Shown one piece after another: positions 24,575 to 48,846 of a stretch of DNA of 48,846 nt. A model generated the notes under the pieces. That model was not told the origin of the DNA. It saw only the letters and a list, made by a program, of their open reading frames with translations, and did no database searches. The position numbers and the translations under genes are program-made. The stretch is from Anaerolineaceae bacterium (lineage in GTDB: Bacteria; Chloroflexota; Anaerolineae; Aggregatilineales; Phototrophicaceae): assembly GCA_007693385.1 (NCBI GenBank), contig REDR01000116.1:1-48846 (forward strand), given 5' to 3'. Numbering within the stretch: position 1 is the first letter of the stretch; each line of letters opens with the position of its first letter.

Positions 24575-26503
24575 TCATCCGCCTTCGACGGTGGTCATCG
24601 CCTGCGCTTGCATCCGCACATTGTCCGACCAGTTACCCGCCGAATCCACCATCCACGCCGCGAATTCATACGTCTGACCGGGCACGCCGTCGAACATCGC
24701 GCCGGTTTCGCCCGTCGTCTGCCACGACTGCCAATCGCCACCAGCCTCACGCGCCCAGATCACAAAATAATCGACATCGCCCTCGCCCACCCAGTTGACT
24801 TCAAAGCGCGGCGGGCTGATTTCCGGTAGCGGTAAGATGCTGGCCTGTGGCGCGTTCGATCCGCCGAGTGAGAATGTCGGCGTCGGCGCGGGCGTCGGTG
24901 TGGGCGCGGGCGTCTCGGACGGTAGCGGATCGACGCCGACGGGGATCACATCATCGGAGCGGCGCTCGATCAGGATGTACGGCATTCCGCCAATCGCCAG
25001 TCCGCCAAACGGCCCGCCACTGCGTATCGCGCTGGGCGTGGCGGGCGGCAACGTGACGCGATACAGCCCGTCATCGTCGGGGTTGATGGCGAGATTGCTC
25101 TGCAAAGAGATCAACCGCCCGCCTAACCCTACCGGCTCAATCTCGATGGTGGCGGGCGCGGTGCGGCGGTTCCACATCACCAGAATGCGCTCGTCGGCTT
25201 GCGGACGCTCGAAGGCCAGCATGGTGAAGCGCTCATCCAACCACATCGGGCTATCAAGCGGGCGAAACTGTTCGCCACTAAAGACACGCGCCATCAACCG
25301 GAACGCATCCGCTACCGGACGGGCGGTGCCCGGCGCTGGATGCTGGCTGAAGCAGATCGAATCGGCGTGGTTGCGGAACATGCCGAAGGCGTCGCCATAG
25401 CACCAGCCATCATCACGACACAGGTCGCCGTTATGCGGCGGGAAGTCGGTCCCGGCGGGTTGGTCGCCGCAATCGTCATAAAGCTGATGGTAAAACACCT
25501 TATCCGCGCCCGCGTGCCACGCATGGACGGTACTCTGGATGAAATACCATGCTTGCTGTTGCAGGTCGGCTAGATGCGGGGTATCCGAGCGCCATGTCGG
25601 GCCGGGATAGTCGTCCCACACCGAAATGCCGCTTTCATTCACCCAGATCGGGCGCTCGAAGCCGAAAGCCCGCATCGTCTGGCGGGCGAATAGCGTCAGC
25701 CAGCCGCTACGCCATGGGTCGATGTAGCTATGCACGCCGACTAAATCCATGTACCAATTGAAGCGCTCGTGGTCGGGGTCTTGCACCAGCACGTTCAACA
25801 CTTGCGCTAGAAAGTTCTGCTCGGTGGGGAACAGCAGGCCGCCGAACATCACCTGCGCCGACGGATCAACCGATTTGATGACGATATAGCTCACTTTCAG
25901 CATTCGCGCATAGTCGTTGACGCCGCCGCGCCAGAAGTTCTCGAAGTCCGGCTCGTTCCATACTTCCCACACGCGGATTCCAGCATCCGGCGGCAGGCGA
26001 AACGCGGTAGGCATCAACCCGCCCGGACGATAGCGGCGCACCGCGTTCCACACGTACAGCGCCCACGGGTTATCGCGGTTGATGGTCTTGCCCGCGCCCG
26101 GCTCGTCGCTCCCATCGCTGAAGATCGGCGCGTGCAGGCCGCTGATGCTATCTCCGGCACGGTATCGCGGCGGCACGCCGAGCAAAATGGCGTTGATCTG
26201 TAGGCCGTGCCGCAAATCGTCGTGTACCTGCCGATCATACGCCGACCAATCCCACACGCCGGAGCTATGCGACACGCGATCCCAATAAATCGGCCAGCGA
26301 TTCCAGCCCGCGCCCAGTTGTAGCGCCTGCTGATAGCGTTCCGACGGCGTGACTTCGCCGGAGAGCGAGATATGGGCGATGCCCAGCCGGTCAGCGCGGG
26401 CGTGCGGCTGTTGCGCGGTATCCGACGCCGACGGCGACGAATGAGCGAAAAGCGCGATCAGAGTGAATAGGACAGCTAGTTTAATCAACATTTTGACATT
26501 CAC
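24575..26503 (-). CDS. Secreted clan-A glycoside hydrolase-like protein with C-terminal beta domain
   Basis: 642 residues. A signal peptide (about 1-26) precedes a TIM-barrel of the GH-A type (about 35-420). The acid/base is E184 in WEVWNEPD and the nucleophile is E290 in PIWVNESG, both on expected barrel strands; the family could be GH39-like or a relative. After it come a beta domain (about 420-530), a TPTPAPTPT linker (about 535-550) and a fibronectin-like domain (WVGEGDVDYFVIWAREAGGDWQSW). The GTG at 26503 is annotated; an ATG four codons later is equally possible. It is the last gene of the minus-strand run and ends against a palindrome. Confidence 0.83.
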   Translation of the reverse strand: MNVKMLIKLAVLFTLIALFAHSSPSASDTAQQPHARADRLGIAHISLSGEVTPSERYQQALQLGAGWNRWPIYWDRVSHSSGVWDWSAYDRQVHDDLRHGLQINAILLGVPPRYRAGDSISGLHAPIFSDGSDEPGAGKTINRDNPWALYVWNAVRRYRPGGLMPTAFRLPPDAGIRVWEVWNEPDFENFWRGGVNDYARMLKVSYIVIKSVDPSAQVMFGGLLFPTEQNFLAQVLNVLVQDPDHERFNWYMDLVGVHSYIDPWRSGWLTLFARQTMRAFGFERPIWVNESGISVWDDYPGPTWRSDTPHLADLQQQAWYFIQSTVHAWHAGADKVFYHQLYDDCGDQPAGTDFPPHNGDLCRDDGWCYGDAFGMFRNHADSICFSQHPAPGTARPVADAFRLMARVFSGEQFRPLDSPMWLDERFTMLAFERPQADERILVMWNRRTAPATIEIEPVGLGGRLISLQSNLAINPDDDGLYRVTLPPATPSAIRSGGPFGGLAIGGMPYILIERRSDDVIPVGVDPLPSETPAPTPTPAPTPTFSLGGSNAPQASILPLPEISPPRFEVNWVGEGDVDYFVIWAREAGGDWQSWQTTGETGAMFDGVPGQTYEFAAWMVDSAGNWSDNVRMQAQAMTTVEGG

Positions 26504-27868: not shown

Positions 27869-29416
27869 TTACTCTTCTTCAGCGACGGGCGACTGAACGA
27901 CGGGCGGCAAGCCGAAGTGTTCACGGATGCGCCCTTCGATCTCCTCAGCCATAGCCGGATTTTCCGCTAGAAACTGCTTGGCGTTCTCACGCCCCTGCCC
28001 CAGAAGTTCCTCATTGTAGCGGTAGAACGCGCCGCGCTTCTCGATGATGCCCAGATCAGTACCCAGATCAACGATTTCGCCGTTCTTGCTGATGCCGTTC
28101 TCGTAGAACATGATGTCGAACTCGGCTTCGCGGAACGGCGCGGCGACTTTGTTCTTGGTCACGCGGATGCGCGTGCGGTTGCCGATGTTCTCCCCACCCT
28201 GCTTGATGGATTGAATGCGGCGGATGTCCAGCCGCACGCTGGCATAGAATTTCAGCGCCCGCCCGCCGGATGTCGTCTCCGGTGAATTATGCACGATGAC
28301 GTTATCGACGGCGTAGCAATGATTACCGGCTACTTCGATGTCGTAGCGCGGCGTCGCTTCGTCTAAAGTCAGTGCGGCGATATGGTTGATCGTCGTCGTT
28401 TCAGCAGTATAAGCTGTCGTCGTGGTATGCACACCGGCGGGCACCAGCGCCGGTTGCGCCATCACCACGCGCTCGCCGATCTGCAATTCTCCGGCGGGGG
28501 TGTAGCCGTCCGGCGTGCGGATCAGATGATTCGCGGTACAGGTCAGCGTTGCGCCGTCCGCCGTGTTGATCGTCAGGAATTCCCGCGTCAGCCCATTGTC
28601 GAACCAGCCGACCACCGGACGCGGTTCAATCGTGCCATCCGCCGCATTGTACGACATCACCTCAACCGGCAATTGCCGCTCTACGATGTCGGCGATGCGC
28701 TCCGTCGTGCCATCGGCCAACAATACGCGGCTATCGCCATGAAAACAGCCGAACATCACGCCGACTTTCTCGCGTAGCTGATTGGTGAAGATCACCGTCG
28801 TGTTGGTCTGCTTGATGACGCCGGATAGCTTGCGTAACGCCTGACTCATCAGACGCGCTTGCAGGCCGACATGGGCATCGCCCATCTCGCCTTCGATCTC
28901 GGCACGCGGCACCAGCGCCGCCACACTATCGACCACCACCACATCCAGCGCGCCGGAGCGCACCAGCGACTCCGCGATTTCCAGCGCTTGCTCGCCGGTG
29001 TCCGGCTGGGAGATGTACAGCGTCTCCAGATTAACGCCGATGCGCTCCGCATAAGACGGATCGAGCGCGTGTTCCATGTCGATGAACGCGCACAGCCCGC
29101 CGCGCCGTTGCGCCTGCGCGATGACGCTCAGGCAGAATGTGGTCTTGCCGGATGATTCCGAGCCGTAAATCTCGGTGACGCGCCCGCGTGGGACGCCACC
29201 GACGCCCAGCGCAATATCTACCGTGATCGAGCCGGTGGGGATGGTCGCTACGGCCAGATTTTGCGCGTCGCCCAGCCGCATGATCGCGCCGTCGCCGTAA
29301 CGCTTGTTGATGTCGCCCAGCGTCGCTTCTAGCGCTTTGCGCCGCCCTTCGTCCATCGGGTTATCGCTATCGAAGAGGCCAACGTCTTTTTTCTCGCTCG
29401 CTTTTTTTCTCGCCAT
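27869..29416 (-). CDS. recA: Recombinase RecA containing a mini-intein
   Basis: 515 residues as translated; removal of a 154-residue intein leaves a 361-residue RecA, the normal size. N-extein 1-223 has the Walker [10 protein letters not shown] (85-93), the strand [13 protein letters not shown] and the loop [20 protein letters not shown]. The C-extein begins [23 protein letters not shown]. It catalyses strand exchange and drives LexA cleavage. The intein splits the conserved MFG/SPETT site. A TTGACA/GATGAT promoter with an SOS-box-like GAAC-n4-GTGC lies upstream. The next gene is mscS. Confidence 0.95.
28286..28747 (-). other. RecA mini-intein (154 residues, no homing endonuclease)
   Basis: Residues 224-377 of the precursor. 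It begins with Cys ([10 protein letters not shown], block A), has a block B TANH histidine motif ([14 protein letters not shown]), block F near [13 protein letters not shown] and ends with His-Asn before Ser (block G). These are the hallmarks of class-1 splicing chemistry: Cys1, His-Asn at the end, Ser +1. The 154-residue length leaves no room for LAGLIDADG. The insertion is after MFG, the site I know from the Mycobacterium leprae-type RecA intein. Confidence 0.95.
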
Positions 29417-34716: not shown

Positions 34717-34763
34717 GGTGAGCGCCATATAAGCCGCCGCTCAGATGGCGCTCACCGAATTTT
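34717..34763 (+). terminator. Rho-independent terminator of the PPC-repeat gene
   Basis: Perfect 12-bp arms GGTGAGCGCCAT / ATGGCGCTCACC (34717-34728 / 34745-34756) run into GAATTTTT. It isolates the rhodopsin gene from upstream transcription. Confidence 0.88.
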
Positions 34764-34896
34764 TATCGCACACAATACCCCGCCTTATCTCACGCGCATA
34801 TCGTTTAGAACATACTGAAAGTTTTGACGTTAGTTGAAAAATCTGTGACGTATTTCGTGATTCACATATTTAGCATAACATTGGGGAGCTTTGACT

Positions 34897-35772
34897 ATGT
34901 TACCACCGAGTTATGAGAACCTGTTCTCATACAACGCCATGGAATTCTACATGGTGTCGCATACGCTGACGGTTGGCTTCGCCATCATGTTGGCCGCACT
35001 ATTCTACTTTATCTTGACCATCCGCACCGTCGCACCGCGTTATCGCATTTCATCGGTGTTGTCGGTTGTCGTGATGGTCTCCGCCTTTTTAATCCTGTTC
35101 TTCCAGCAACAAAGCTGGGAAAACGCTTTCATGTGGGATGAAACACAGCAGTTATTCATCCGTGATGAAGCCGCGTTACCGTTCTCTAACGGCTATCGCT
35201 ATCTGAACTGGTTGATCGACGTGCCGATGCTGTTGCTTCAGATTTTGTTCATCGTGGAAATCACCAAACAGCGCCGTGCTTCGTTGCGTAACTGGTTCTT
35301 CTTCTCCGGCTCGATGATGATCGTCACCGGCTACATCGGCCAGTTCTATGAGGTGTCGGAAGTGGTGCGCGGTGAGGCGGGCGAAATCCTGAGCTACTCG
35401 CTGGCGGGCACGCCGTTCTTCATCTGGGGCGCTATCTCGACGCTGTTCTTCTTCCATGTGTTGTTCTTGATATATAAGATCGTTCAAGAAGCGCGTAAAG
35501 AACTGCCGGGCAATGCCGCCACCGTGATGGGCACTATCGGCGTGTTGTTCTTCGTGTCGTGGTTCCTGTATCCGGGCGCGTACCTGATGCCGCTATGGGA
35601 TGAAGGCGCGATGAGCGTCGTCGGGCGGCAGATCACATTCACCGTCGCCGACGTGGCATCGAAGGTGATCTACGGTATCTTGCTGGCCTATGTCGCGCAG
35701 ATTCGTAGCAACCATGACGGTTACGTGTACGAAGAAATCGAAGGCGGCAACGAAGGGCTGGAAGCGGCCTAA
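34897..35772 (+). CDS. Microbial rhodopsin with NDQ motif: putative light-driven Na+ pump
   Basis: 291 residues from the ATG at 34897 (GGGGAG 8 nt upstream; the TTG two codons earlier is only 2 nt from it). Seven helices. Helix C reads RYLNWLIDVPMLLLQ with R101, N104, D108 and Q115 at the bacteriorhodopsin 82/85/89/96 positions: the N-D-Q set that defines Na+-pumping rhodopsins such as KR2. The retinal lysine is K256 (ADVASKVIYG) with the second counterion D252 four residues before. L112 at the Leu93 position predicts green absorption. Gly178 (IWGAIST) occupies the Trp138 position, the fenestration that admits a carotenoid antenna in xanthorhodopsin. No retinal-synthesis gene is adjacent. A terminator follows. 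Confidence 0.95.
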   Translation: MLPPSYENLFSYNAMEFYMVSHTLTVGFAIMLAALFYFILTIRTVAPRYRISSVLSVVVMVSAFLILFFQQQSWENAFMWDETQQLFIRDEAALPFSNGYRYLNWLIDVPMLLLQILFIVEITKQRRASLRNWFFFSGSMMIVTGYIGQFYEVSEVVRGEAGEILSYSLAGTPFFIWGAISTLFFFHVLFLIYKIVQEARKELPGNAATVMGTIGVLFFVSWFLYPGAYLMPLWDEGAMSVVGRQITFTVADVASKVIYGILLAYVAQIRSNHDGYVYEEIEGGNEGLEAA

Positions 35773-35802: not shown

Positions 35803-35830
35803 AGGGGCGTAGCGTGCTACGCCCCTTTTT
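35803..35830 (+). terminator. Rho-independent terminator of the rhodopsin gene (GGGGCGTAGC palindrome)
   Basis: Perfect 11-bp arms AGGGGCGTAGC / GCTACGCCCCT with loop GT run into TTTTT. It is the same palindrome as at 24507-24532, here serving as a terminator. Confidence 0.88.
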
Positions 35831-35934: not shown

Positions 35935-38900
35935 ATGGCCGATAAGATGGTAGCACAGACTATTGACCGATTGATCGCGCCGTTTGATAGCAAACGGACG
36001 GAAATAGCAGACCGCATTCGCTACGCCTCCGGCATCCTGCTCGTCATTATCGTGTTCGCACTGGTAACGCTGACTATCTTCACCATCGTCGGCTATCCGA
36101 TCAACTTCCAATCATGGCATATCAATCTAGCGCTGGTCGGTCTTGTCGCCGCGTATGCCGTCACGCGCATGGGATACCCCAACGGCGGAATCTGGTTGGG
36201 CATCGTGGCGATAGTGGCCGGTCTGATCGTCAACGCGACGCCGCCGCAGGTCGGCGCGGCGTCGCCTTTCTTGCTATATCTCATCATCCCGATTTTGCTG
36301 GCCGCGCTTTTCTTATCAATGGCGGCGCAAATACTGGTTAATGTATCCGTCGTCGGCATCGTCGCCGCCCTGCCGTTACTGTATCCCGATCACATCGTCT
36401 ATGATGATCTGATGGTGAATGCGCTGGTCAACCTCAGCGCGGTCTCATTGATGGCGCTGGGGCTGGGGTTGGCACGGCGCACGCTGACACAGCGCACACG
36501 CCTACAGGCCGCGCTATTCCAGACATTGAGCGAAGAACACGACAGCCTGCTGACACGAGCCACCATCATCACCCGCGCCATGAGTGATTTCACATACGAA
36601 GTGCGTCTGGAGGACGGCGATCCGGAGCGCCTGTCGTTCGACAACATCGAAGGCGCGTTCGAGCGTTTGACCGGCTACCCGCGTAATCGCCTCATCAAGC
36701 CGGAAACGCTATCGCTGATCCACGAGGCAGACCGCGAGCGCGTCCGCAAGCACCTTCAAACCGCGTGGGACGGCAAAGCACACACCATCGAAGCCCGCAT
36801 CATCACCCGCGACGGTCAAACGCGCTGGGTGCAAAACCACGCCTACCCACGCATCAACGCACAGGGCGATGTTGTCTCGCTCATCTGCATCGCGCATGAC
36901 ATCACAGACCGCACCGAGCGCGAAAACGCGCTCTCCGACCACGCCATCCGGCAGGCCGTCGTCGCGGAACTGGGACAACGGGCGCTGAGTGATGTGTACA
37001 CCACGCATCAGATCATCCGCCACGCCGCCACGTTGATCCGGCAGGCTTTGACCGCCGACTATGTACGCATCATCGAGATTGCGCCCGATCAGCGCACCGT
37101 GATCTTCGACCATCGCATCAGCGACAAGACGGACGAGCCGGAACAAATTTACAGCGTCGCCGAGCCACCGCTAGCCGATGCGATACGGCGCGGGGTGGTC
37201 ATCAACATCGACGACAGCGCCCATGACCGGCGCTATGAGCAGGTCGCCGCTAGCGGCTTCGCCAGTATGGTCTGCGTGCCACTGATCGCGCACGCCGCCC
37301 CCGTCGGCGTGATGGTGGTCTGTCGCACCGAGCACAACCCGTTCAGCAAAGAGGTCGTTGACTTCTTGAAGTCGGTGGCAAACGTGCTGACATCGCTGAT
37401 CGAGCAGAAGCGCACACAGGTCGCCGAAGACCAGCAACGCGCCATCATCGAAGCGCAGAATCGCGTCGCCGCCGCCCTCAATTCGTCGCTGGGTTTGGAG
37501 GCGGTGCTGGATACCATTCTGGACAATCTGCCGCGCATCGTGCCGCATGATTTCGCCTCAATCATGCTGGTTGAAGGCGACCACGCCCGCATCATCCGGC
37601 ATCGTGGCTTTCCGGCCAAGCATCACGCCAAGCTGAGCCAATTGACATTCAACATCCGCACCGATAGCGCCATCCGGCGCATGATCCGCGAGCGCTCCGG
37701 CTTGATCTGGCTGGACGTTCACAAAGAACCGGGCTGGCGCAGTCTGCCGGAACCGGACATGATCCGTTGTTATATGGGCGTGCCCATCTTTCATCAGGAT
37801 ACGTTAATCGGCGTGCTGAATGTCGATCACAGCCAGCCGAATAGCTTCACCGGCGAGCATCTATCACGGGTGCAATCATTCGCGGATCAGGCCAGCATCG
37901 CCATCCGCAACGCCAACCACACCCGCGAGCTAGAGAAGCGCGTCGCCCAACGCACCGCCGAGCTAGAGCGCGAACAGCGCCACATGCAGACCATCCTCGA
38001 CGGCACCGCCGAAGGCATCTACTACGCGGAAAATCATGTCATTCAATATATCAATCCAGCGCTGGCCGCTATGACCGGCTACCAGATGAGCGACATCATC
38101 GGGCAGAATAGCGGCCTGTTCATCGTCGAAACGCGGGACGAGGAGAACTGGCGACGCATCAGAGCGTACTTGCGCGATCATCCGGTGTGGCGCGGCGAAG
38201 TGATCGTCGAGCGTGCCGACGGCGTGCGCTTCGAAGCCGGCGCGACAGTCTCCACGATTGAATGGCACGATGACCGCCTGCGTACCGTCACCTTGCTCCG
38301 CGACATCAGCGAGCAGAAGGCGCTACAAGAACAGAAGATGCGCTTCATCGCCAACGCCAGCCACGAGCTAAGGTCGCCGCTAACGTCGATCAACACGCGC
38401 ATCTATCTGATGCAACGCGACCCGATGCGCATGGTCGATCATATCCAGATGTTTCGCTATGCGGTTGACCGCATGAACCGCCTGATCGAAGATTTGCTGG
38501 ATATGTCGCGCTTTCAGAACGGCGTCATCCGCCTGCAACGGCGCAACGTCGTCATGCAACAGGTCATCAGCGACACGATCGGCCTGCACGAGATCGAAGC
38601 GCAACAGCGCGAGATCGAACTGGTCATCGACCTTGACCCCGATCCGCTCAACGTGCATATTGACCCGGATCGCATCGGGCAGGTATTGACCAACCTCATC
38701 AACAACGCGCTGAGCTATACGCCGAACGGCGGGCGCGTCACCGTGCGCCTGCAACACGACGAGCAGGCCGTCATTCAAGTGCAGGACACCGGAATCGGCA
38801 TCGCGCCGGAAGAATTGGAGAGCGTGTTTCAGCCATTCTATCGCGGCGAACAGGTCAGCGACATCAAAGGGACGGGACTCGGCCTGTGCATCAGCCGCGA

Positions 38901-39009
38901 GATCGCCCTGTTGCATGGCGGCGATTTGAGCGTGCAAAGTCAGGTCGGCGTTGGCAGTGTGTTTCAGTTGCGCTTGCCGACGCCTGAATCCGAAAAGAGT
39001 ATAGATTAA
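35935..39009 (+). CDS. Multi-domain membrane sensor histidine kinase (PAS-GAF-GAF-PAS)
   Basis: 1024 residues. About six or seven transmembrane helices (about 28-190) form a membrane sensor. A PAS domain (about 225-345, with ITRDGQTRWVQNHAYP and the closing HDITDRTERE), two GAF domains (about 345-500 and 515-670), a coiled coil (VAQRTAELEREQRHMQ) and a second PAS (about 680-800) follow. The HisKA domain has H810 in ANASHELRSPLTS. The HATPase domain has N-box LTNLINNAL, G1 DTGIGIAPEE and G2 GTGLGLCI. No response regulator is adjacent. The ATG at 35935 lacks a clear ribosome site; one four codons later is possible. Confidence 0.9.
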   Translation: MADKMVAQTIDRLIAPFDSKRTEIADRIRYASGILLVIIVFALVTLTIFTIVGYPINFQSWHINLALVGLVAAYAVTRMGYPNGGIWLGIVAIVAGLIVNATPPQVGAASPFLLYLIIPILLAALFLSMAAQILVNVSVVGIVAALPLLYPDHIVYDDLMVNALVNLSAVSLMALGLGLARRTLTQRTRLQAALFQTLSEEHDSLLTRATIITRAMSDFTYEVRLEDGDPERLSFDNIEGAFERLTGYPRNRLIKPETLSLIHEADRERVRKHLQTAWDGKAHTIEARIITRDGQTRWVQNHAYPRINAQGDVVSLICIAHDITDRTERENALSDHAIRQAVVAELGQRALSDVYTTHQIIRHAATLIRQALTADYVRIIEIAPDQRTVIFDHRISDKTDEPEQIYSVAEPPLADAIRRGVVINIDDSAHDRRYEQVAASGFASMVCVPLIAHAAPVGVMVVCRTEHNPFSKEVVDFLKSVANVLTSLIEQKRTQVAEDQQRAIIEAQNRVAAALNSSLGLEAVLDTILDNLPRIVPHDFASIMLVEGDHARIIRHRGFPAKHHAKLSQLTFNIRTDSAIRRMIRERSGLIWLDVHKEPGWRSLPEPDMIRCYMGVPIFHQDTLIGVLNVDHSQPNSFTGEHLSRVQSFADQASIAIRNANHTRELEKRVAQRTAELEREQRHMQTILDGTAEGIYYAENHVIQYINPALAAMTGYQMSDIIGQNSGLFIVETRDEENWRRIRAYLRDHPVWRGEVIVERADGVRFEAGATVSTIEWHDDRLRTVTLLRDISEQKALQEQKMRFIANASHELRSPLTSINTRIYLMQRDPMRMVDHIQMFRYAVDRMNRLIEDLLDMSRFQNGVIRLQRRNVVMQQVISDTIGLHEIEAQQREIELVIDLDPDPLNVHIDPDRIGQVLTNLINNALSYTPNGGRVTVRLQHDEQAVIQVQDTGIGIAPEELESVFQPFYRGEQVSDIKGTGLGLCISREIALLHGGDLSVQSQVGVGSVFQLRLPTPESEKSID

Positions 39010-39098: not shown

Positions 39099-41357
39099 AT
39101 GTTCGTATGGCAGGTAACTCTCATCACTATATCGCTGGTGGCCGCGCTGGTATCGGCATGGGTCAGCCTCATCGCGCAACGACGCAACACACGCGGCGCG
39201 GCGGAAATACGTTTGTTCGCGTGGTTGGTGAGCGCGTGGGCGTTGCTGTATGCCGTCGCGCTCTCAGTGAATAATGCGGCGCTGATGATGGCACTGGAAC
39301 GCATCAAGCTGGCGCTAGGCCCGTGGCTCGGGCTGGTATGGCTGGCGCTGGCCTGTCGCCTGACCAGCAAATACCGCGCAATAAATCAGCGCTGGTTCAA
39401 GCCGATGGTCGCCATAGCCGGAATCACCACCGCGCTGACGTTACTCAACCCCAACGAGCTACTATGGCAGATGACCGTCGTCGATTCCGCGCTGGGCTTT
39501 GAGGCGGTGGCGCTATACCCGCGAGCGCTGGCCGCGCTGTATCTGGCGGCCACGCTCGGCTACGGCTTAATCGGGCTGGCGGTGATGGTCGGCTGGATTC
39601 TGAGACGCGATAAAGGCGACACGGTATCGCCTTTAGTGTGGGCATTCGTGATCGTCACCGCGCTCTCTCTGCTGGCGTGGCCGCTTGTGCATGGCTGGTA
39701 TCGCGTCGATCTGTTTCCGGTGTTGGGCGCATTCATCACCTATGCGATGAGTGTCGGGCGTTTTCAGTTTCGTATATCTGACCTGTTGCCGGTGGCCTAC
39801 GATAGCATCATCGCCAATATGCCAAACGGCGTGATGATCGTTGATCTGCAAAAACGGATTCGTACCATCAATCCGGCGCTAACGCGCATCGCTAATGTGC
39901 AGGCGCAAGACGTGCGCGGCGCGAATCTGGCCGCCACCTTCCCGCAGTTGCCGACTTGCGACTGTGAACACGAGTGCGAAATCGTGTGGGGCGAACGCCA
40001 ATACAGCTTACAGGTCAACGCGGTGGAGGACGGCTACGGCCATGTGCAGGGCTATCTGTGGGTGTTCCACGACATCACCCAGCGCAAGGACGCGGAAGAA
40101 GAATTGCGGCGCAGTCTGGAAAAATTGTACATCCTGCGCCAGATCACCGACGAAATCGCCGACACGCTCAGCGTCGATGACGTGCTGTTGATCTCGTTGG
40201 ACGCGGCGGCGCGGCTGACCGGCGGCAGTGCGGGGGTCATCGCGCTGTTAGACGCCGACCAGCGCATCATCTCCGCGCAGACCGTCGGGCAGTTCTCCGG
40301 CCTTGATGCATTGGGGGCGCTGGATATGCAAGCGCCAGCCATCGGCGAAGCGCTGGAATCGCGGCGGGCGACGCTCAACACCACGACCAAACGCCCGCAA
40401 GTGGTCGGGCCGTTAGTTTCGCGGGATCGCATCATCGGTATCATCAGCCTAGAGACGGCGCGGGATGATCTATTCAATCAGGATACGCTCAATTTCATTC
40501 AGGTGTTCGGGGATCGCGTGGCGATGGCGATGGAAAACGCCCGCCTCTACCGGCAAGCGCAAGACCAGATCGACGAATTGAAGCGGCTATATGAGCAGGT
40601 CAGCCGACTGGAAGGCATCAAGACCGACATGATCCGCATCGCCGCGCACGATCTCCGCAGTCCGTTGTCGGTGCTGATGGGCTATCTGTCCATGCTGGAG
40701 GACGACGCCGAGCAATTCGACGACGAACTGAACGACTATGTTCAGCAGATGCTATCGGCCACGCGGCGCATCACGGTGATGATCGACGAGATTCTATCGC
40801 TGGATCGCATCGAGCGCATGGCGCAGGAATTGACCGCCGAGCCGTTCGACATGAAGCCGCACGCCAAAGAAGCGGTGCATGAATTCCGGTGGCTGGCGCA
40901 GGAGAAGAAGATCAACCTGTCGTTCGTGCCGCGCACCGACGAAGCGACGATCATCAACGGCGATCCCCTGCAAATCTACGAGGCGATGATTAATCTAATC
41001 AGCAACGGCATCAAATATACGCCGGAGGGCGGCAACGTCACCGCGTATCTGCACACCTCTCAGGCCGATAACTGCGTGTCGTTTTCCGTCGAAGATGACG
41101 GTTACGGCATCCCCGAAGATCAACAAGACGATCTATTCAGCGCCTACACCCGCGCCAGTACCGCCGAGACTAGCAAAGTGGAAGGTAGCGGGCTGGGCTT
41201 GAATATCGTGAAGAAGATCATCGAACGGCACAAGGGCAAGCTATTTTTCGAGAGCGAATACAGACAGGGTAGCACGTTCGGCTTCTCCATCCCGCTTTAT
41301 CAGCCCGCCCCACCACCCTCTGCGGCGGACGGAGAAAAAGCGCTAGACGGCGCTTAA
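39099..41357 (+). CDS. 7TM-type sensor histidine kinase (PAS-GAF)
   Basis: 752 residues. An N-terminal seven-helix histidine-kinase sensor (about 1-225, 7TM-His-kin-like) precedes a PAS domain (about 232-335) containing an unusual CDCEHEC cysteine cluster at about 287-293, a GAF domain (about 350-490) and a coiled coil. The HisKA domain has H517 in IRIAAHDLRSPLSVL and the HATPase N-box INLISNGIKYTPE, with G1 DDGYGIPEDQ and G2 GSGLGLNIV. No cognate regulator is adjacent. The Cys/His cluster could bind metal or be redox-active, which is inference. It is convergent with the next gene, 12 bp apart. Confidence 0.9.
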   Translation: MFVWQVTLITISLVAALVSAWVSLIAQRRNTRGAAEIRLFAWLVSAWALLYAVALSVNNAALMMALERIKLALGPWLGLVWLALACRLTSKYRAINQRWFKPMVAIAGITTALTLLNPNELLWQMTVVDSALGFEAVALYPRALAALYLAATLGYGLIGLAVMVGWILRRDKGDTVSPLVWAFVIVTALSLLAWPLVHGWYRVDLFPVLGAFITYAMSVGRFQFRISDLLPVAYDSIIANMPNGVMIVDLQKRIRTINPALTRIANVQAQDVRGANLAATFPQLPTCDCEHECEIVWGERQYSLQVNAVEDGYGHVQGYLWVFHDITQRKDAEEELRRSLEKLYILRQITDEIADTLSVDDVLLISLDAAARLTGGSAGVIALLDADQRIISAQTVGQFSGLDALGALDMQAPAIGEALESRRATLNTTTKRPQVVGPLVSRDRIIGIISLETARDDLFNQDTLNFIQVFGDRVAMAMENARLYRQAQDQIDELKRLYEQVSRLEGIKTDMIRIAAHDLRSPLSVLMGYLSMLEDDAEQFDDELNDYVQQMLSATRRITVMIDEILSLDRIERMAQELTAEPFDMKPHAKEAVHEFRWLAQEKKINLSFVPRTDEATIINGDPLQIYEAMINLISNGIKYTPEGGNVTAYLHTSQADNCVSFSVEDDGYGIPEDQQDDLFSAYTRASTAETSKVEGSGLGLNIVKKIIERHKGKLFFESEYRQGSTFGFSIPLYQPAPPPSAADGEKALDGA

Positions 41358-43178: not shown

Positions 43179-46100
43179 TTACGGTGCGGTGATCTCGCGC
43201 ACCCAGTTCATGTGATCGCGTAGCCAGCTCGCCCATGTGGACTGCGCCCAGTACGGCGTCTCGCCGGTGGCCGGTAGCTCGCCGATACTGCGGACTTCGG
43301 CTTGCGCTTCACCGCGATACTGGCCTTGCAGTACCGCAAGGTTGGTCACGATGAACGGCGGCACCACATCCGGACGCAGGCGCGTCAAGATTTCGATGGT
43401 CAGCGTCTGCTGTGCTTGCAACGTCACGACGTTAAACGTGATCGTCTGCCCGTCGATGGTCAGCTCACCTTCCGGCGGCGACTCGGTACTGATGATCTCG
43501 AACTGTTCCGGCATCTCGTCCACGAAGCGCACATTGCTGAGCGGTACGCCGTGCGGATTGATGACCGAGATCGTCCAGACCACATCTTCGCCGGGTTGCG
43601 CGAAGATCGGGTCTACCAGCTTGACGATGGCCGGATCAATCCCGAACGGGCCGAGCGGGTCTTCGGGGTCGTCAGCGATGTTGACCGTCGCCTCTGCGCT
43701 CTCCGTCTCGCCGCCGCGTGTGATCGTGCCGACGTTGGTATACGAACCCGGGCCGGGCACGGTCACGTCGAACGCGATTTCTACGCGATTCGCCTGACTG
43801 GTGTCGATTTCGCCCGTCCAGAGTACGGTATTGGTCGCCGCGTTGTATTCACAGCTTTGCGTCACGCTGGCGCCGAACGCGGTACAGATCAGGTTGCCGT
43901 CGAACGTCTGGCCGGGCTGTAGCACGTCGCTGACGGTGGCCGCCTCGCGTGTGCCGGTGTTGAACCAGACCATCGTCCAGCGAATGCGGAACGCATCTTC
44001 ATCGACCACCACGCCGACTTTGGTACCGGCTGGCGGGTCAAAGATGATGCCGCTTTCGTCCTCCGCGATGACCGTCTCATCGGTCAGCAGAAGGCTGGCG
44101 GTGTTGGTGACGGTGGTCGGCGGCGGGATCAGCGTCGGGTCGAGCGTGGCGCGGATGCGGATGATGATTTCGCCGCCCGGCGATAGATCGACATTGAAGA
44201 TCGGGTCGCCCGCGATGGGGTTATCCGCCGTGCCGACATTCGCGCTAGCCTGCCCACTGATACAACTGGCGAGCGCGTTAGATTCACACCACCAGCCGAC
44301 GGTATCTTCTAAGAACTGCGGCGGCAACTCGTCGATGAACTGGCGGTTGGTCACGGTGCGCGGGCTACTGGCGCTGTTGCGGATGGTCACGGTGTACACC
44401 GTCTCCTGCCCGACAACAATCGCGTTCTGGCCGTTGGTCTTATTCATGGACACGCCCGGCGCACGGATTTCCACGCGGTAGTCCTCGACTTCGCCATCGC
44501 TCACCTCGCCCAACGGTGACGGCGGATTATTCGGGTCACCATCGACGAAGATGCTGGTGTCCGTCGTCAAGCGGAAGCGGGCGTATGTCTCGCCGCCCGT
44601 CGCAGTCAGCAAGTCGGAGCCAACCGGCACGTAGAACGGCATATTCACCGTCTGCGGTTCGGAACTCGGCGGCACTTCTACCACCACCTGTTCGCCATCA
44701 TCGAACGTGCCGCTACCGTCAAAGTCGATCCAGCCGATCAGATAAGCGGTCTGGCCGGTATTGTTGAACACGCGCACCTCAACATCGGCGGGCGAGTCGG
44801 CCACGAGTGGCGGGAAGGTCACGCCGTCTTCGTCATCTACGCCGCTTGTGTCATCACCATCCGCGCCGACTGTCGGCTGGCCGTCCTCTTCAGCATCCAC
44901 CACGAAGCCCATATATAGGTCGGGGATGATCTGATGGCGCGGCCCGTCGTTGATTTCCCGCGTGCCGTAGTTTGCGGGATTACCGTTGGGGAAGGTGAAC
45001 ATAAACGTACCGTCTTCATTTCTGTCCGGCGCGTCGCCCCAGTCGAATTGCGGCACGAAGCCGAAGTCAACCGTGCTGTTAGCGTTATTGTCAACACCGT
45101 TCGCGCCGATGATCGGGTTATCGTCATCGTCAACCGGCCAGTCGCCTTCACCCGTCGGCGCATCATTCAGCACGAGCTGGATCAGCCCGCTACGGATGCC
45201 GGTTGTCGCCGGATCATTGGAGTCGATGCCGTTGTCGCGCTGGTCGTCACGATCACCGCCGGTATTGTCGTCGGTGTACGCGCCGGTACTGCTCAGCAGG
45301 CCGTATAGCGGCGCTGTGGGCGTATTGAAGTTACTCGGCGGGATGACCACCACGTAACGCCCCGGCACCAGATTATCGAACAGATAGTAGCCGTCTTCGT
45401 CGGTGGTCGTCGTCTGCAAGACCGCGCCCGTCGGGTTGCCGTCTGTGTCGGCGCGGAACAGTTGCACCGTCACATCTTCGATGCCGGCTTCGTCGCCGTT
45501 CTGTATGCCGTCATTGCGGGTACCGCCGCCCGCGCCATCATCCAGCCAGACGCGGTTGCCGATGCTCATGAAGGTTTCATCACCTAAGAAGAAGCCGAAG
45601 TCCAGCGTCAGGTTGCTGTTGTTGTTCGCTTCGCCGTTACGCCCACGAGAGTTCGGCCCGTGTGCCAGCGCGTTACCGCTAAGGTCGGTCTCGTTGGTCG
45701 GCTGAGCGCCCAGTTCCAGCGTGAAGACGTTGCTCTGGATGCCGTTAACCTGCGGATCGGCTTCGTCCACGCCGTTGTTGTTGCGGTCTGTGGTCGTCTC
45801 GCCGGTCAGGATGTCCGGGCGGATTGGCTCGCTGTTGGTCATGCCATCTAGCGGCGCACCACTGGCGAAGTTACTGGCGGAGACAACCACCACATACTCA
45901 CCCGGCGGCAGGCCGTCGAAGATATAGTAACCGTTGGTGTCGGTTTCCGTGATGTAGGGTGTCATGGTCGGGTTGCCGTCCGTGTCAAACGTCTGCACCA
46001 TGAACGGCTCATCGGGCAGGCCGTCAGCGTCCGGTATCCATAGCTCCAGACGCACCTCCGCGATTCCCGGCTCTCCGGTGTCTTGCAGGCCGTTGTTGGT

Positions 46101-48846
46101 CTGTGCGCCGCCGCCATTGTCGAACCAGACGCGATTACCCAGGCTCATCGGGCGATACACGCCGAAGTCTACCGTCAGATTGCTGTTGTCGTCGTTGCCA
46201 CCCGCGCCGATGTCGCCGCCCGGCTCGATGTCGGTTTCACCCGTCGGCGCATTGTCCAGCGTCAGCGTCACAAGGCCGGAATAGATGCCGTTGATCTCCG
46301 GACTGCCATTCGGCAAGCCGTTATTGCGATCATCCGTCGTGCCGTCGGCGGTGAATAGCGTGCTACCGTAGCCACGCAGGACGCCCGTGCCGACGAAGTT
46401 GGACGGCGCAAGCTGAACAACGTAGTTGCCCGGCGACAGCCCGTCGAACAGGTAGTAACCGCCGTCGCTGGTTGTCGTGGTGGCGATGTGGCCGCCAATC
46501 GGGTTGCCGTCAGCGTCGGCGAAGTACAGCCGCACGCGCACACCGTCCACGCCCGGCTCGTCTTCCTGCCGGATGCCGTCACGGTACACGCCACTGCCCG
46601 CGCCTTCGTCAATCCAGACGCGATTGCCGATGCTCATGAACGCCGCGTTGAAACCGACATCAACCGTCAAGTTGCTGTTGTTGTCGGTCTCGCCGAAGTT
46701 GCCGCGTGAGTTCGGCCCGTGCGCCGGATTGCCGCTGAGGTCGGTTTCGCCGGTTGGCGCGTTATTGACCGTCAGCGTGATGACGTTGGTGCGGACGCCT
46801 TCCGTCACGTTATCGGATGGGTCAGCGTTCGGGATGCCGTTATTGTTGCGGTCGGCGTCGTCGGTGAAGCTCTGCGAGCTGGTATCCAATCCTTCGAGAA
46901 TGCGGTCCGTGGCGAAGTTATCCGGCGCGACGCGCACCACGTATTGCCCTTCGCCCAGCCCATCAAAGATGTAGTAGCCGTTATCGTCGGTGGTGGTGGT
47001 GTCCACCTGTTCCCAGTTGTCGGTGTCTGTCGGGTCGAAGTCGTCGTCGTCGGCTTCGCCCTCACCGATGTAGCGCCACAGTTCCAGCTCAACGCCGGGC
47101 ACGCCGGTTTCGGTCGGGTCTTGAATGCCGTCGTCGTTGGTATCGTACCAGATGCGATTGCCGATGCTCATCGGACGATACAGGCCGAGATCGCGGGTCA
47201 GGTCGCTATTGGCGTTGTCACCGCCCGCGCCGATTTGCGGCTCGCCGTCAATCACCTGAATGTCGTCAGGGTCTTCGTTGACCGGCGCTTGATCCAGCGT
47301 CAAGGTGATGGTGTCGGTTATCACGCCATAGGCCGGATGCCGCCCGTTCGCGCCATAGCCCGGCCCGTTGCTCAGGCCGTTGTCAAGGTTATCTTCGCGG
47401 ACGAATTCGCCACTTACTTCATCAACCGGGCCGGTGAAGTTCGCGTCGCCGTCATTACTGCTCCGTAGGCCGTTAAGCGGTTGCCCCGCGCCGAAGTTGC
47501 TATTGTTCAGCCCGACGATGTACTGTCCGGGCGCCAGATTATCGAACAGATAGTAGCCTTCAGCGTCGGTGGTCGTGGTGCGGATGGCCGCGCCATCCGG
47601 CAAGCCGTCGCCATTATTGTCACGGTACAGCGAAACGATCACATTCGCGATGCCGTCTTCGTCGTCGTCAATCCTGCCGTTGTTGTTGCGGTCAAACCAG
47701 ACGCGATTGCCCAAACTCATCAAGCCGCCGGTGAAGCCGAAGTCATACGTCAGGTTACTGTTGTCTGATGTGGCGCGTTCACCGTAACCGTCGGGGCCGA
47801 AGTCGCTCTCGTTTTCCGGTTCGCTGTCGCGCACCAACGTTAGCGGCCTGCTGGTCACGTTGCCGACGCCATCCAGAACGCCGTTGCTGTTGTTGTCGAT
47901 CAGCTTACGGCTTCCCGGATCGTTCGGATCAACCACATCGACATCTTCTAGTGTCGGGTTCAGGCCATTGAGCGGTCCACCGGCATCAAACTGACTGGCC
48001 GGGATGATAATCTGATAGATGCCCGGCGTCAGGTCGTCGAACAGATAGTAGCCGTTCAGGTCGGTTGTCGCCGTCAACGGCGTGGTGGTCGGTTCGCCGG
48101 TAGCCGGATCAAGGATGAACACCTGCTCGTAGTTACCGAGATCGTCTTGATCGTCGTCTGTGTCGCCAACGAAGCGGTACAGTTCCAGCGTCACACCCTG
48201 AATACCGCTTTCGTCAGGGTCAATCAGGCCGTCGCCGTTGGCATCCAGCCAGACGCGGTTACCCAAGCTCATCGGCTTGTAGAAGCCGAAGTCGCGGGTC
48301 AGGTCGCTATTGCTGTCGATCTGCCCCTGATTACCGATGGATTCCGGGCCGTCGTCAGGATTGCCGCTGAGATCGTCCTCGCCCATTGGCGCTGAATTCT
48401 TGGATAGCGGAATCGGCACGCTGAACACACCGTTCACGCCCGGATTGTCCTCGTCAATACCGTTGTCGCGGGTGTCCTCGCGGAAGTTGCCGTCCGCGTT
48501 CGGATCGTCGGGGTCAGCGTCCGGATCAAAGGGTAGCGTCGCGTCGCTGTAGACGCCGGTACTGCTGTAATACTCGAACAGCGGTTCGCCGTCACGGAAG
48601 TTGATCGCATCCACTCGCACCACATACACGCCTTCATCAAGGCCGTCGAACAGATAGTAGCCGTTCGCGTCGGTGAAGGTGGTATCCAATGCGCCGCCCG
48701 TCGGGTTGCCGTCAGCGTCGGCGGCGAACAGCGTCAGCCGCACGCCGGGGACCGGCGCTTCAGGATCGAACGGATCATCCGGGTCATAACGCCCGTTGTT
48801 GTTGTAGTCGTACCAGATGAAGTTACCGATGCTGAAGCTCGGCGGC
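43179..48846 (-). CDS. Giant surface protein with SdrD-B repeats, GEVED and DUF11 domains (5' end outside window)
   Basis: At least 1,888 residues; the frame is open to the right edge, so the N-terminus and signal are missing. Seven SdrD-B/Cna-B-like modules of about 180 residues open with (M)S-(I/L)-G-N-R-(V/I)-W (plus-strand starts near 48830, 48275, 47720, 47170, 46635, 46145 and 45565). Each has a D-x-N-x-D-G Ca2+-type loop and G-x-Y-x-F-D-x-L. A GEVED domain (FDWGDAPD ... EVSDGEVEDY) and three DUF11-type beta domains follow. The C-terminus has LPATGETPYW then 25 residues that are Trp-rich but not a membrane helix. It is a stalk-like adhesin or surface-layer component. The stop at 43179 is followed by a terminator. 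Confidence 0.93.
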   Translation of the reverse strand, partial: PPSFSIGNFIWYDYNNNGRYDPDDPFDPEAPVPGVRLTLFAADADGNPTGGALDTTFTDANGYYLFDGLDEGVYVVRVDAINFRDGEPLFEYYSSTGVYSDATLPFDPDADPDDPNADGNFREDTRDNGIDEDNPGVNGVFSVPIPLSKNSAPMGEDDLSGNPDDGPESIGNQGQIDSNSDLTRDFGFYKPMSLGNRVWLDANGDGLIDPDESGIQGVTLELYRFVGDTDDDQDDLGNYEQVFILDPATGEPTTTPLTATTDLNGYYLFDDLTPGIYQIIIPASQFDAGGPLNGLNPTLEDVDVVDPNDPGSRKLIDNNSNGVLDGVGNVTSRPLTLVRDSEPENESDFGPDGYGERATSDNSNLTYDFGFTGGLMSLGNRVWFDRNNNGRIDDDEDGIANVIVSLYRDNNGDGLPDGAAIRTTTTDAEGYYLFDNLAPGQYIVGLNNSNFGAGQPLNGLRSSNDGDANFTGPVDEVSGEFVREDNLDNGLSNGPGYGANGRHPAYGVITDTITLTLDQAPVNEDPDDIQVIDGEPQIGAGGDNANSDLTRDLGLYRPMSIGNRIWYDTNDDGIQDPTETGVPGVELELWRYIGEGEADDDDFDPTDTDNWEQVDTTTTDDNGYYIFDGLGEGQYVVRVAPDNFATDRILEGLDTSSQSFTDDADRNNNGIPNADPSDNVTEGVRTNVITLTVNNAPTGETDLSGNPAHGPNSRGNFGETDNNSNLTVDVGFNAAFMSIGNRVWIDEGAGSGVYRDGIRQEDEPGVDGVRVRLYFADADGNPIGGHIATTTTSDGGYYLFDGLSPGNYVVQLAPSNFVGTGVLRGYGSTLFTADGTTDDRNNGLPNGSPEINGIYSGLVTLTLDNAPTGETDIEPGGDIGAGGNDDNSNLTVDFGVYRPMSLGNRVWFDNGGGAQTNNGLQDTGEPGIAEVRLELWIPDADGLPDEPFMVQTFDTDGNPTMTPYITETDTNGYYIFDGLPPGEYVVVVSASNFASGAPLDGMTNSEPIRPDILTGETTTDRNNNGVDEADPQVNGIQSNVFTLELGAQPTNETDLSGNALAHGPNSRGRNGEANNNSNLTLDFGFFLGDETFMSIGNRVWLDDGAGGGTRNDGIQNGDEAGIEDVTVQLFRADTDGNPTGAVLQTTTTDEDGYYLFDNLVPGRYVVVIPPSNFNTPTAPLYGLLSSTGAYTDDNTGGDRDDQRDNGIDSNDPATTGIRSGLIQLVLNDAPTGEGDWPVDDDDNPIIGANGVDNNANSTVDFGFVPQFDWGDAPDRNEDGTFMFTFPNGNPANYGTREINDGPRHQIIPDLYMGFVVDAEEDGQPTVGADGDDTSGVDDEDGVTFPPLVADSPADVEVRVFNNTGQTAYLIGWIDFDGSGTFDDGEQVVVEVPPSSEPQTVNMPFYVPVGSDLLTATGGETYARFRLTTDTSIFVDGDPNNPPSPLGEVSDGEVEDYRVEIRAPGVSMNKTNGQNAIVVGQETVYTVTIRNSASSPRTVTNRQFIDELPPQFLEDTVGWWCESNALASCISGQASANVGTADNPIAGDPIFNVDLSPGGEIIIRIRATLDPTLIPPPTTVTNTASLLLTDETVIAEDESGIIFDPPAGTKVGVVVDEDAFRIRWTMVWFNTGTREAATVSDVLQPGQTFDGNLICTAFGASVTQSCEYNAATNTVLWTGEIDTSQANRVEIAFDVTVPGPGSYTNVGTITRGGETESAEATVNIADDPEDPLGPFGIDPAIVKLVDPIFAQPGEDVVWTISVINPHGVPLSNVRFVDEMPEQFEIISTESPPEGELTIDGQTITFNVVTLQAQQTLTIEILTRLRPDVVPPFIVTNLAVLQGQYRGEAQAEVRSIGELPATGETPYWAQSTWASWLRDHMNWVREITAP

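Follow-up and report, generated by a model that had tools for sequence, protein, structure and literature searches.

The gene at positions 34897-35772 on the forward strand of the window (the whole stretch of DNA analysed, 48,846 nucleotides) very probably codes for an outward Na+ pump driven by light, of the KR2 type (NDQ, Subgroup 1), a reading on which the motif, the phylogenetic tree, the predicted fold and the core residues agree. The host belongs to the Chloroflexota, class Anaerolineae, and the proposal of an earlier sequence-only reading, that of a KR2-type Na+ pump in a Chloroflexota genome, is supported on these grounds as well as by a host-like GC content at third codon positions. 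Pumps of the KR2 type are already known and their occurrence in Chloroflexota has been reported before; the present locus is a well-supported addition from an Anaerolineae lineage, and genes of this kind prove to recur in the family to which the window belongs.

The gene, its core residues and its predicted fold

The open reading frame, of 291 amino acids, matches the Pfam family Bac_rhodopsin (PF01036; E 4.4e-43) and is the sole match to that family in the host genome (3.59 Mb in 137 contigs, 96.85% complete). Together with K256 and an AlphaFold2 model, this match identifies a seven-helix opsin carrying a retinal lysine in helix G. An NCBIfam search with the protein assigned no family. The hexamer GGGGAG at 34883-34888 (forward strand, as are all features of this gene given below), 8 bases 5' of the ATG at 34897, is a likely ribosome-binding site, and a promoter pattern scan found no sigma-70-like promoter. 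The gene had been described as standing between two terminators, and hairpins with T runs are indeed found on both sides: one at 34717-34756, after the upstream gene for a PPC-domain protein (-32.2 kcal/mol, z -7.3, none of 200 shuffles as good), and one at 35803-35826, 3' of the rhodopsin (z -3.5, 2 of 200 shuffles as good), an arrangement suggesting that the rhodopsin gene is probably its own transcript. The first hairpin is missing from the list of a terminator pattern scan because its loop is larger than the limit of that scan, which gave two sites, one of them within the rhodopsin gene, against 1.3 expected and hence no excess.

Residues were numbered according to KR2 through a Dokdonia protein (L068), in which the motif Asn was set to 112 and the retinal Lys then falls at 255. 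Helix C of the rhodopsin, RYLNWLIDVPMLLLQ, contains N104 (35206-35208), D108 (35218-35220) and Q115 (35239-35241), the motif codons spanning 35206-35241, and in helix G the stretch 35650-35664 runs from the codon of D252 to that of K256, the retinal lysine; all five residues were read and aligned at the positions first assigned to them. For comparison we used 80 NDQ relatives, the best 80 of 156 found, a sample that does not reach the more distant sodium-pump rhodopsins (NaRs), including those of Subgroup 2. The NDQ motif and the helix G Asp and Lys are present in all of these best 80. Residues R101, N104, D108, Q115, D252 and K256, which correspond to KR2 R109, N112, D116, Q123, D251 and K255, are the same in 80/80, and so are S62, Q70, Q149, E152, Y225, R244 and S255, the equivalents of KR2 S70, Q78, Q157, E160, Y218, R243 and S254. 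The first six form the RNDQDK set, the rule by which NaRs are selected in the available portion of PMC11006869, and the rhodopsin carries it in full. The same portion defines the KR2-like Subgroup 1 by Leu or Ile at KR2 L74 (PMC11006869). The rhodopsin has Ile there (I66), as do the seven other Chloroflexota NaRs (L002, L003, L004, L005, L046, L051 and L055), and this places it in Subgroup 1 by sequence; the ErNaR-like Subgroup 2, which has Glu at that position, is rejected on the same residue. Other ion-pumping classes were likewise rejected, namely an NTQ chloride pump (Thr at KR2 D116) by D108 and the tree, and a xanthorhodopsin- or proteorhodopsin-like H+ pump (DTE motif) by the NDQ motif and the tree. 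Sequence matches in the PDB rank in the order 8jh0 (IaNaR; 3.6e-85), KR2 entries (about 3e-71), chloride pumps (about 1e-52) and xanthorhodopsin (1e-28). Two substitutions set the protein apart from all or nearly all of the best 80 relatives: KR2 W208, which is Trp in 80/80, is replaced by G215, and KR2 F122, which is Phe in 78/80, by L114.

The AlphaFold2 model, built from 35 aligned sequences, has a mean pLDDT of 87.3 and a pTM of 0.85 and includes the N-terminal helix and the B-C strands. All 50 Foldseek matches listed from the PDB are KR2 or IaNaR structures, with TM scores of 0.81-0.85 by query length. An unusual element is the long extracellular D-E loop (residues 153-176, positions 35353-35424), which runs for 24 residues between E152 and W177 where the best 80 of 156 relatives have 9 (77/80), 10 (2/80) or 14 (1/80); it is mostly of low confidence in the model, with a pLDDT of 56-62 over residues 151-170, the bulk of the loop.

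Set beside KR2 from Krokinobacter/Dokdonia, the protein shares the NDQ motif, the equivalents of R109, D116, D251 and K255 and the predicted fold (TM 0.85 by query length, rmsd 2.0 to 4xtl), whereas its identity is 44-46%, it is without D102, T83 and Y25, and KR2 N61 and G263 are replaced by S53 and A264. With IaNaR it has in common the NDQ motif and the core residues; the Foldseek alignments give 53-54% identity to 8jh0, and identity is 56% to the Indibacter alkaliphilus protein (L064) that is presumably the same as IaNaR. Unlike the rhodopsin studied here, that relative comes from a Bacteroidota host, keeps D102, has a short D-E loop and falls in the other main NaR clade.

Relatives, distribution and ancestry

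The phylogenetic analysis was based on 103 aligned rows, of which a quick tree omits three fragments and a careful tree uses 52. Two rhodopsins found through PF01036 (L082 and L117) are absent from the phmmer hits at E 1e-5 and are in neither tree. Placement with the Na+ pumps had been named by the sequence-only reading as a check on the assignment, and in the careful tree the rhodopsin does lie within the NaR clade, which comprises 36 NDQ rows with support of 95/95, apart from the single NTQ row; its separation from 15 DTE rows has support of 100/98. The quick tree gives an SH-aLRT of 97 for 81 NDQ rows and flags the branch of the rhodopsin itself as long; the sole NTQ row also sits on a long branch, which leaves the root unsure.

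Among the best 80 of 156 relatives, seven are from Chloroflexota and the rest from Bacteroidota, Balneolota and Rhodothermota, with one titled Thalassobius (Pseudomonadota). The seven Chloroflexota proteins, all from metagenome-assembled genomes, carry NDQ and share 58-66% identity with the rhodopsin, whose D-E loop of 24 residues differs from theirs of 9-14. Four of the seven contigs belong to the window's own family: the NDQ matches of G054, G055, G057 and G062 coincide in contig and coordinates with L005, L055, L051 and L046, respectively. Across that family PF01036 matches 18 of 98 genomes, and an NDQ protein is found in five of the 98, the present host (G000) included. A DTE protein occurs in 14 of the 18, with G054 and G062 carrying both types. 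A search of the order with the rhodopsin (E 1e-30) retrieved 6 of 154 genomes, these being the five NDQ genomes of the family and G167, which is apparently the genome of L002, having the same contig number and an overlapping place. A search for NaRs on plasmids yielded three candidate records, at 25.7-28.1% identity.

The remaining rhodopsin of the family, that of G053 (L082:1495-2214, forward strand), is of another type, neither NDQ nor DTE; its helix C carries Asp and Thr, and the position four residues ahead of the retinal Lys is occupied by Pro instead of Asp, a combination that we take to recall Anabaena sensory rhodopsin.

The sequence-only reading had regarded this as an unusual host for a Na+ pump; a new or very unusual host is not supported, given five NDQ genomes among the 98 of the family and a NaR already described from Bellilinea. 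The accessible text of PMC5459899, from 2017, assigns a rhodopsin of Bellilinea sp. (Chloroflexi) to the Na+-pump clade and mentions unpublished results according to which it pumps Na+ in E. coli. That protein, from Bellilinea sp. OTU-31 of Mushroom Spring, resembles ours in being a Chloroflexi rhodopsin of the Na+-pump clade and differs in coming from a hot-spring mat, a likeness drawn from the description in the accessible text and not from sequence (PMC5459899). For the window's family itself, a search of titles and abstract beginnings in the open-licence literature found no report of NaRs.

With regard to ancestry, the careful tree unites 28 sequences of Bacteroidota, Balneolota and Rhodothermota, including one Thalassobius-titled metagenome-assembled genome, at 100/97, and all eight Chloroflexota NaRs examined (the present one and the seven others) lie outside this clade, around it and without a resolved order. 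A recent transfer from Bacteroidota is therefore unsupported, as the rhodopsin falls outside their clade and its GC3 of 0.746 lies within the range of 0.697-0.816 of 26 other ORFs in the window, though its overall GC of 0.535 is the lowest among the 27 ORFs measured. The Chloroflexota NaRs are monophyletic in 0% of 200 bootstrap trees, yet the AU test does not reject a joint clade (p 0.416).

The probable transported ion and possible uses of a Na+ gradient

By analogy with KR2, light would isomerise the retinal bound to K256, the Schiff-base proton would move to D108 and so let Na+ pass, and the ion would be held briefly near N104 and D252 before leaving on the extracellular side; the protein would presumably form a pentamer, and at scarce Na+ it may pump H+ instead. 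At the interprotomer site the residues differ from those of KR2. There, Asp102 joins Tyr25, Thr83 and Phe86 of KR2 in binding a Na+ ion at the contact between protomers, as described in the available part of PMC13129529, and the D102/Y25/T83 site is thought to be general for Subgroup 1, though not its criterion, in the available portion of PMC11006869. All three residues are replaced here (D102 by L94, Y25 by F17 and T83 by E75). At the D102 position the other Chloroflexota NaRs have Leu (L046, L051 and L055), Asp (L003 and L004), Glu (L005) and, in one case, Pro. Since KR2 D102N pumps Na+ about as well as the wild type (PMC13129529, available part), the loss of Asp102 would argue for altered kinetics and not for lost function, and with substitutions at D102, T83, Y25, W208 and F122 the kinetics, the oligomer or the salt response may differ. 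The natural loss of the KR2 Asp102 equivalent combined with a long extracellular D-E loop makes this protein a useful variant for probing the role of interprotomer Na+.

Several families that handle Na+ or H+ were searched for in the host genome and in 14 control genomes. Na_H_Exchanger has one match in the host and is present in 13 of the 14 controls, whereas the SSF symporter family (10 of the 14 controls) and NqrB/RnfD (4 of the 14) gave no match in the host genome. The ATP-synthase c subunit reads TEAIAIY and is without the Gln and Glu-Ser that we take to be the Na+-type motif, which suggests that ATP synthesis probably runs on H+. In a plausible scheme, light-driven Na+ export would spare H+ for the antiporter, or would drive symporters of further families.

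These features can also be read in another way, in which the protein, despite its NDQ motif, natively pumps mainly H+ because its setting is low in Na+ and the auxiliary extracellular Na+ site of KR2 Asp102 has been lost. Such a reading would account for the Leu in place of Asp102, which is shared with three other Chloroflexota NaRs, for the differences at T83 and Y25, and for a genome with neither SSF nor NqrB/RnfD matches and a c subunit of the kind just described; KR2 itself pumps protons once Na+ is removed, according to the available portion of PMC11006869. The near-normal Na+ pumping of KR2 D102N and the retention of the substrate-path residues in the present protein both speak against it, and we consider it unlikely. 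Outward Na+ transport is retained as the preferred reading.

Retinal supply and gene neighbourhood

A phytoene synthase gene (PF00494) is located on another contig of the host genome (C101), in a cluster (L134, G000:C101:108000-127990) that also holds a lycopene cyclase, a desaturase-like flavoprotein of the Amino_oxidase family and a DNA photolyase. The cyclase scores 31.0 bits against PF18916 (cut-off 27) and contains two motifs of the Pro-x-Glu-Glu type. No match was found in the host genome (96.85% complete, 137 contigs) to Blh (PF15461) or to RPE65-type oxygenases (PF03055), and the whole-genome searches with PF15461, PF03055 and PF00494 gave nothing on the window's contig. The sequence-only reading had stated that there are no retinal-synthesis genes, which stands for the window's contig and for the carotene-cleaving step but fails for the carotenoid pathway, whose genes up to lycopene cyclase are present on C101; likewise, of the two genes that it proposed to seek in the rest of the genome, the cyclase is there and blh gave no match. 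Within the family, Blh matches only one of the 98 genomes, and RPE65 matches 10 of the 18 rhodopsin-bearing genomes (12 of 24 among all genomes examined). Eight of those 18 (G000, G001, G002, G018, G022, G030, G053 and G055) have neither.

Carotenoid genes up to lycopene cyclase, with no match to Blh or RPE65, suggest one of two sources of retinal, uptake or synthesis by an enzyme that these searches did not recognise. A comparable gap is noted in the accessible text of PMC5459899, in which a carotenoid oxygenase is lacking in Roseiflexus RS-1 and 'Ca. Roseilinea gracile' and uptake or an unknown enzyme is discussed. The present genome sharpens the question posed there in 2017, namely the retinal source of rhodopsin-bearing Chloroflexota without known carotene-cleaving enzymes (PMC5459899, accessible text). 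The missing Blh and RPE65 matches could also mean that the rhodopsin seldom works in its host for want of retinal and that the gene pays only when retinal comes from neighbours. This is improbable in our view, as the ORF is intact with its functional residues, a lycopene cyclase with both motifs adjoins the phytoene synthase, and rhodopsins without a Blh match are found in other Chloroflexota too, the oxygenase gap of the two organisms named above included. The carotenoid genes and the intact pump without a Blh or RPE65 match, taken with the position of the eight Chloroflexota NaRs outside the Bacteroidota-Balneolota-Rhodothermota clade, would allow a joint reading as well, in which the Chloroflexota of this family make retinal by a carotene-cleaving enzyme of an unrecognised family and, at the same time, the Bacteroidota NaRs descend from theirs, an old stock of Na+ pumps that branches deeply; we hold this combination to be quite doubtful.

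A carotenoid might also serve the rhodopsin directly. Counted on the alignment, G178 stands at the position of the xanthorhodopsin glycine 156, which serves as a carotenoid window in that protein; Gly is also present there in 80/80 of the best 80 of 156 relatives. Because DDR2, a Na+ pump, binds salinixanthin according to the available part of PMC10026069, a carotenoid partner is possible by analogy, though it would then be a general trait of NaRs. A literature search with four terms for carotenoid antennas of sodium pumps returned no match.

The gene neighbourhood was compared between 27 ORFs of the window and eight other NaR loci (seven from Chloroflexota and one from Rhodothermaceae), three of which are shorter than 14 kb. 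Two PAS/GAF histidine kinase genes follow the rhodopsin on the same strand (35935-39009 and 39099-41357), and the notion that it is a light sensor partnering them is barely credible, given the intact pump triad, the terminator-like hairpin between rhodopsin and kinases, and kinase matches at only 2 of the 8 other loci (three of them <14 kb), with 29-39% identity and at a distance of several kb. A conserved gene neighbourhood was likewise rejected, on a limited test, as the only matches besides the rhodopsin are an amylase in L005 and the kinases in L046 and L055, among eight loci of which some are short. A Pfam scan took in 19 ORFs of the window, all from 16375 rightward, and gave no backing to the treS label attached earlier to the ORF at 24575-26503, which yields just a Malt_amylase_C match below the cut-off. 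Elsewhere in the window, recA (27869-29416, reverse strand) contains an in-frame intein: of its 515 residues, those from about 222 to 377 match Hint and Intein_splicing, with RecA stretches on either side. A surface-type protein of 1854 residues (43179-48743, reverse strand) contains seven SdrD_B stretches together with CarboxypepD_reg, GEVED and DUF11 matches.
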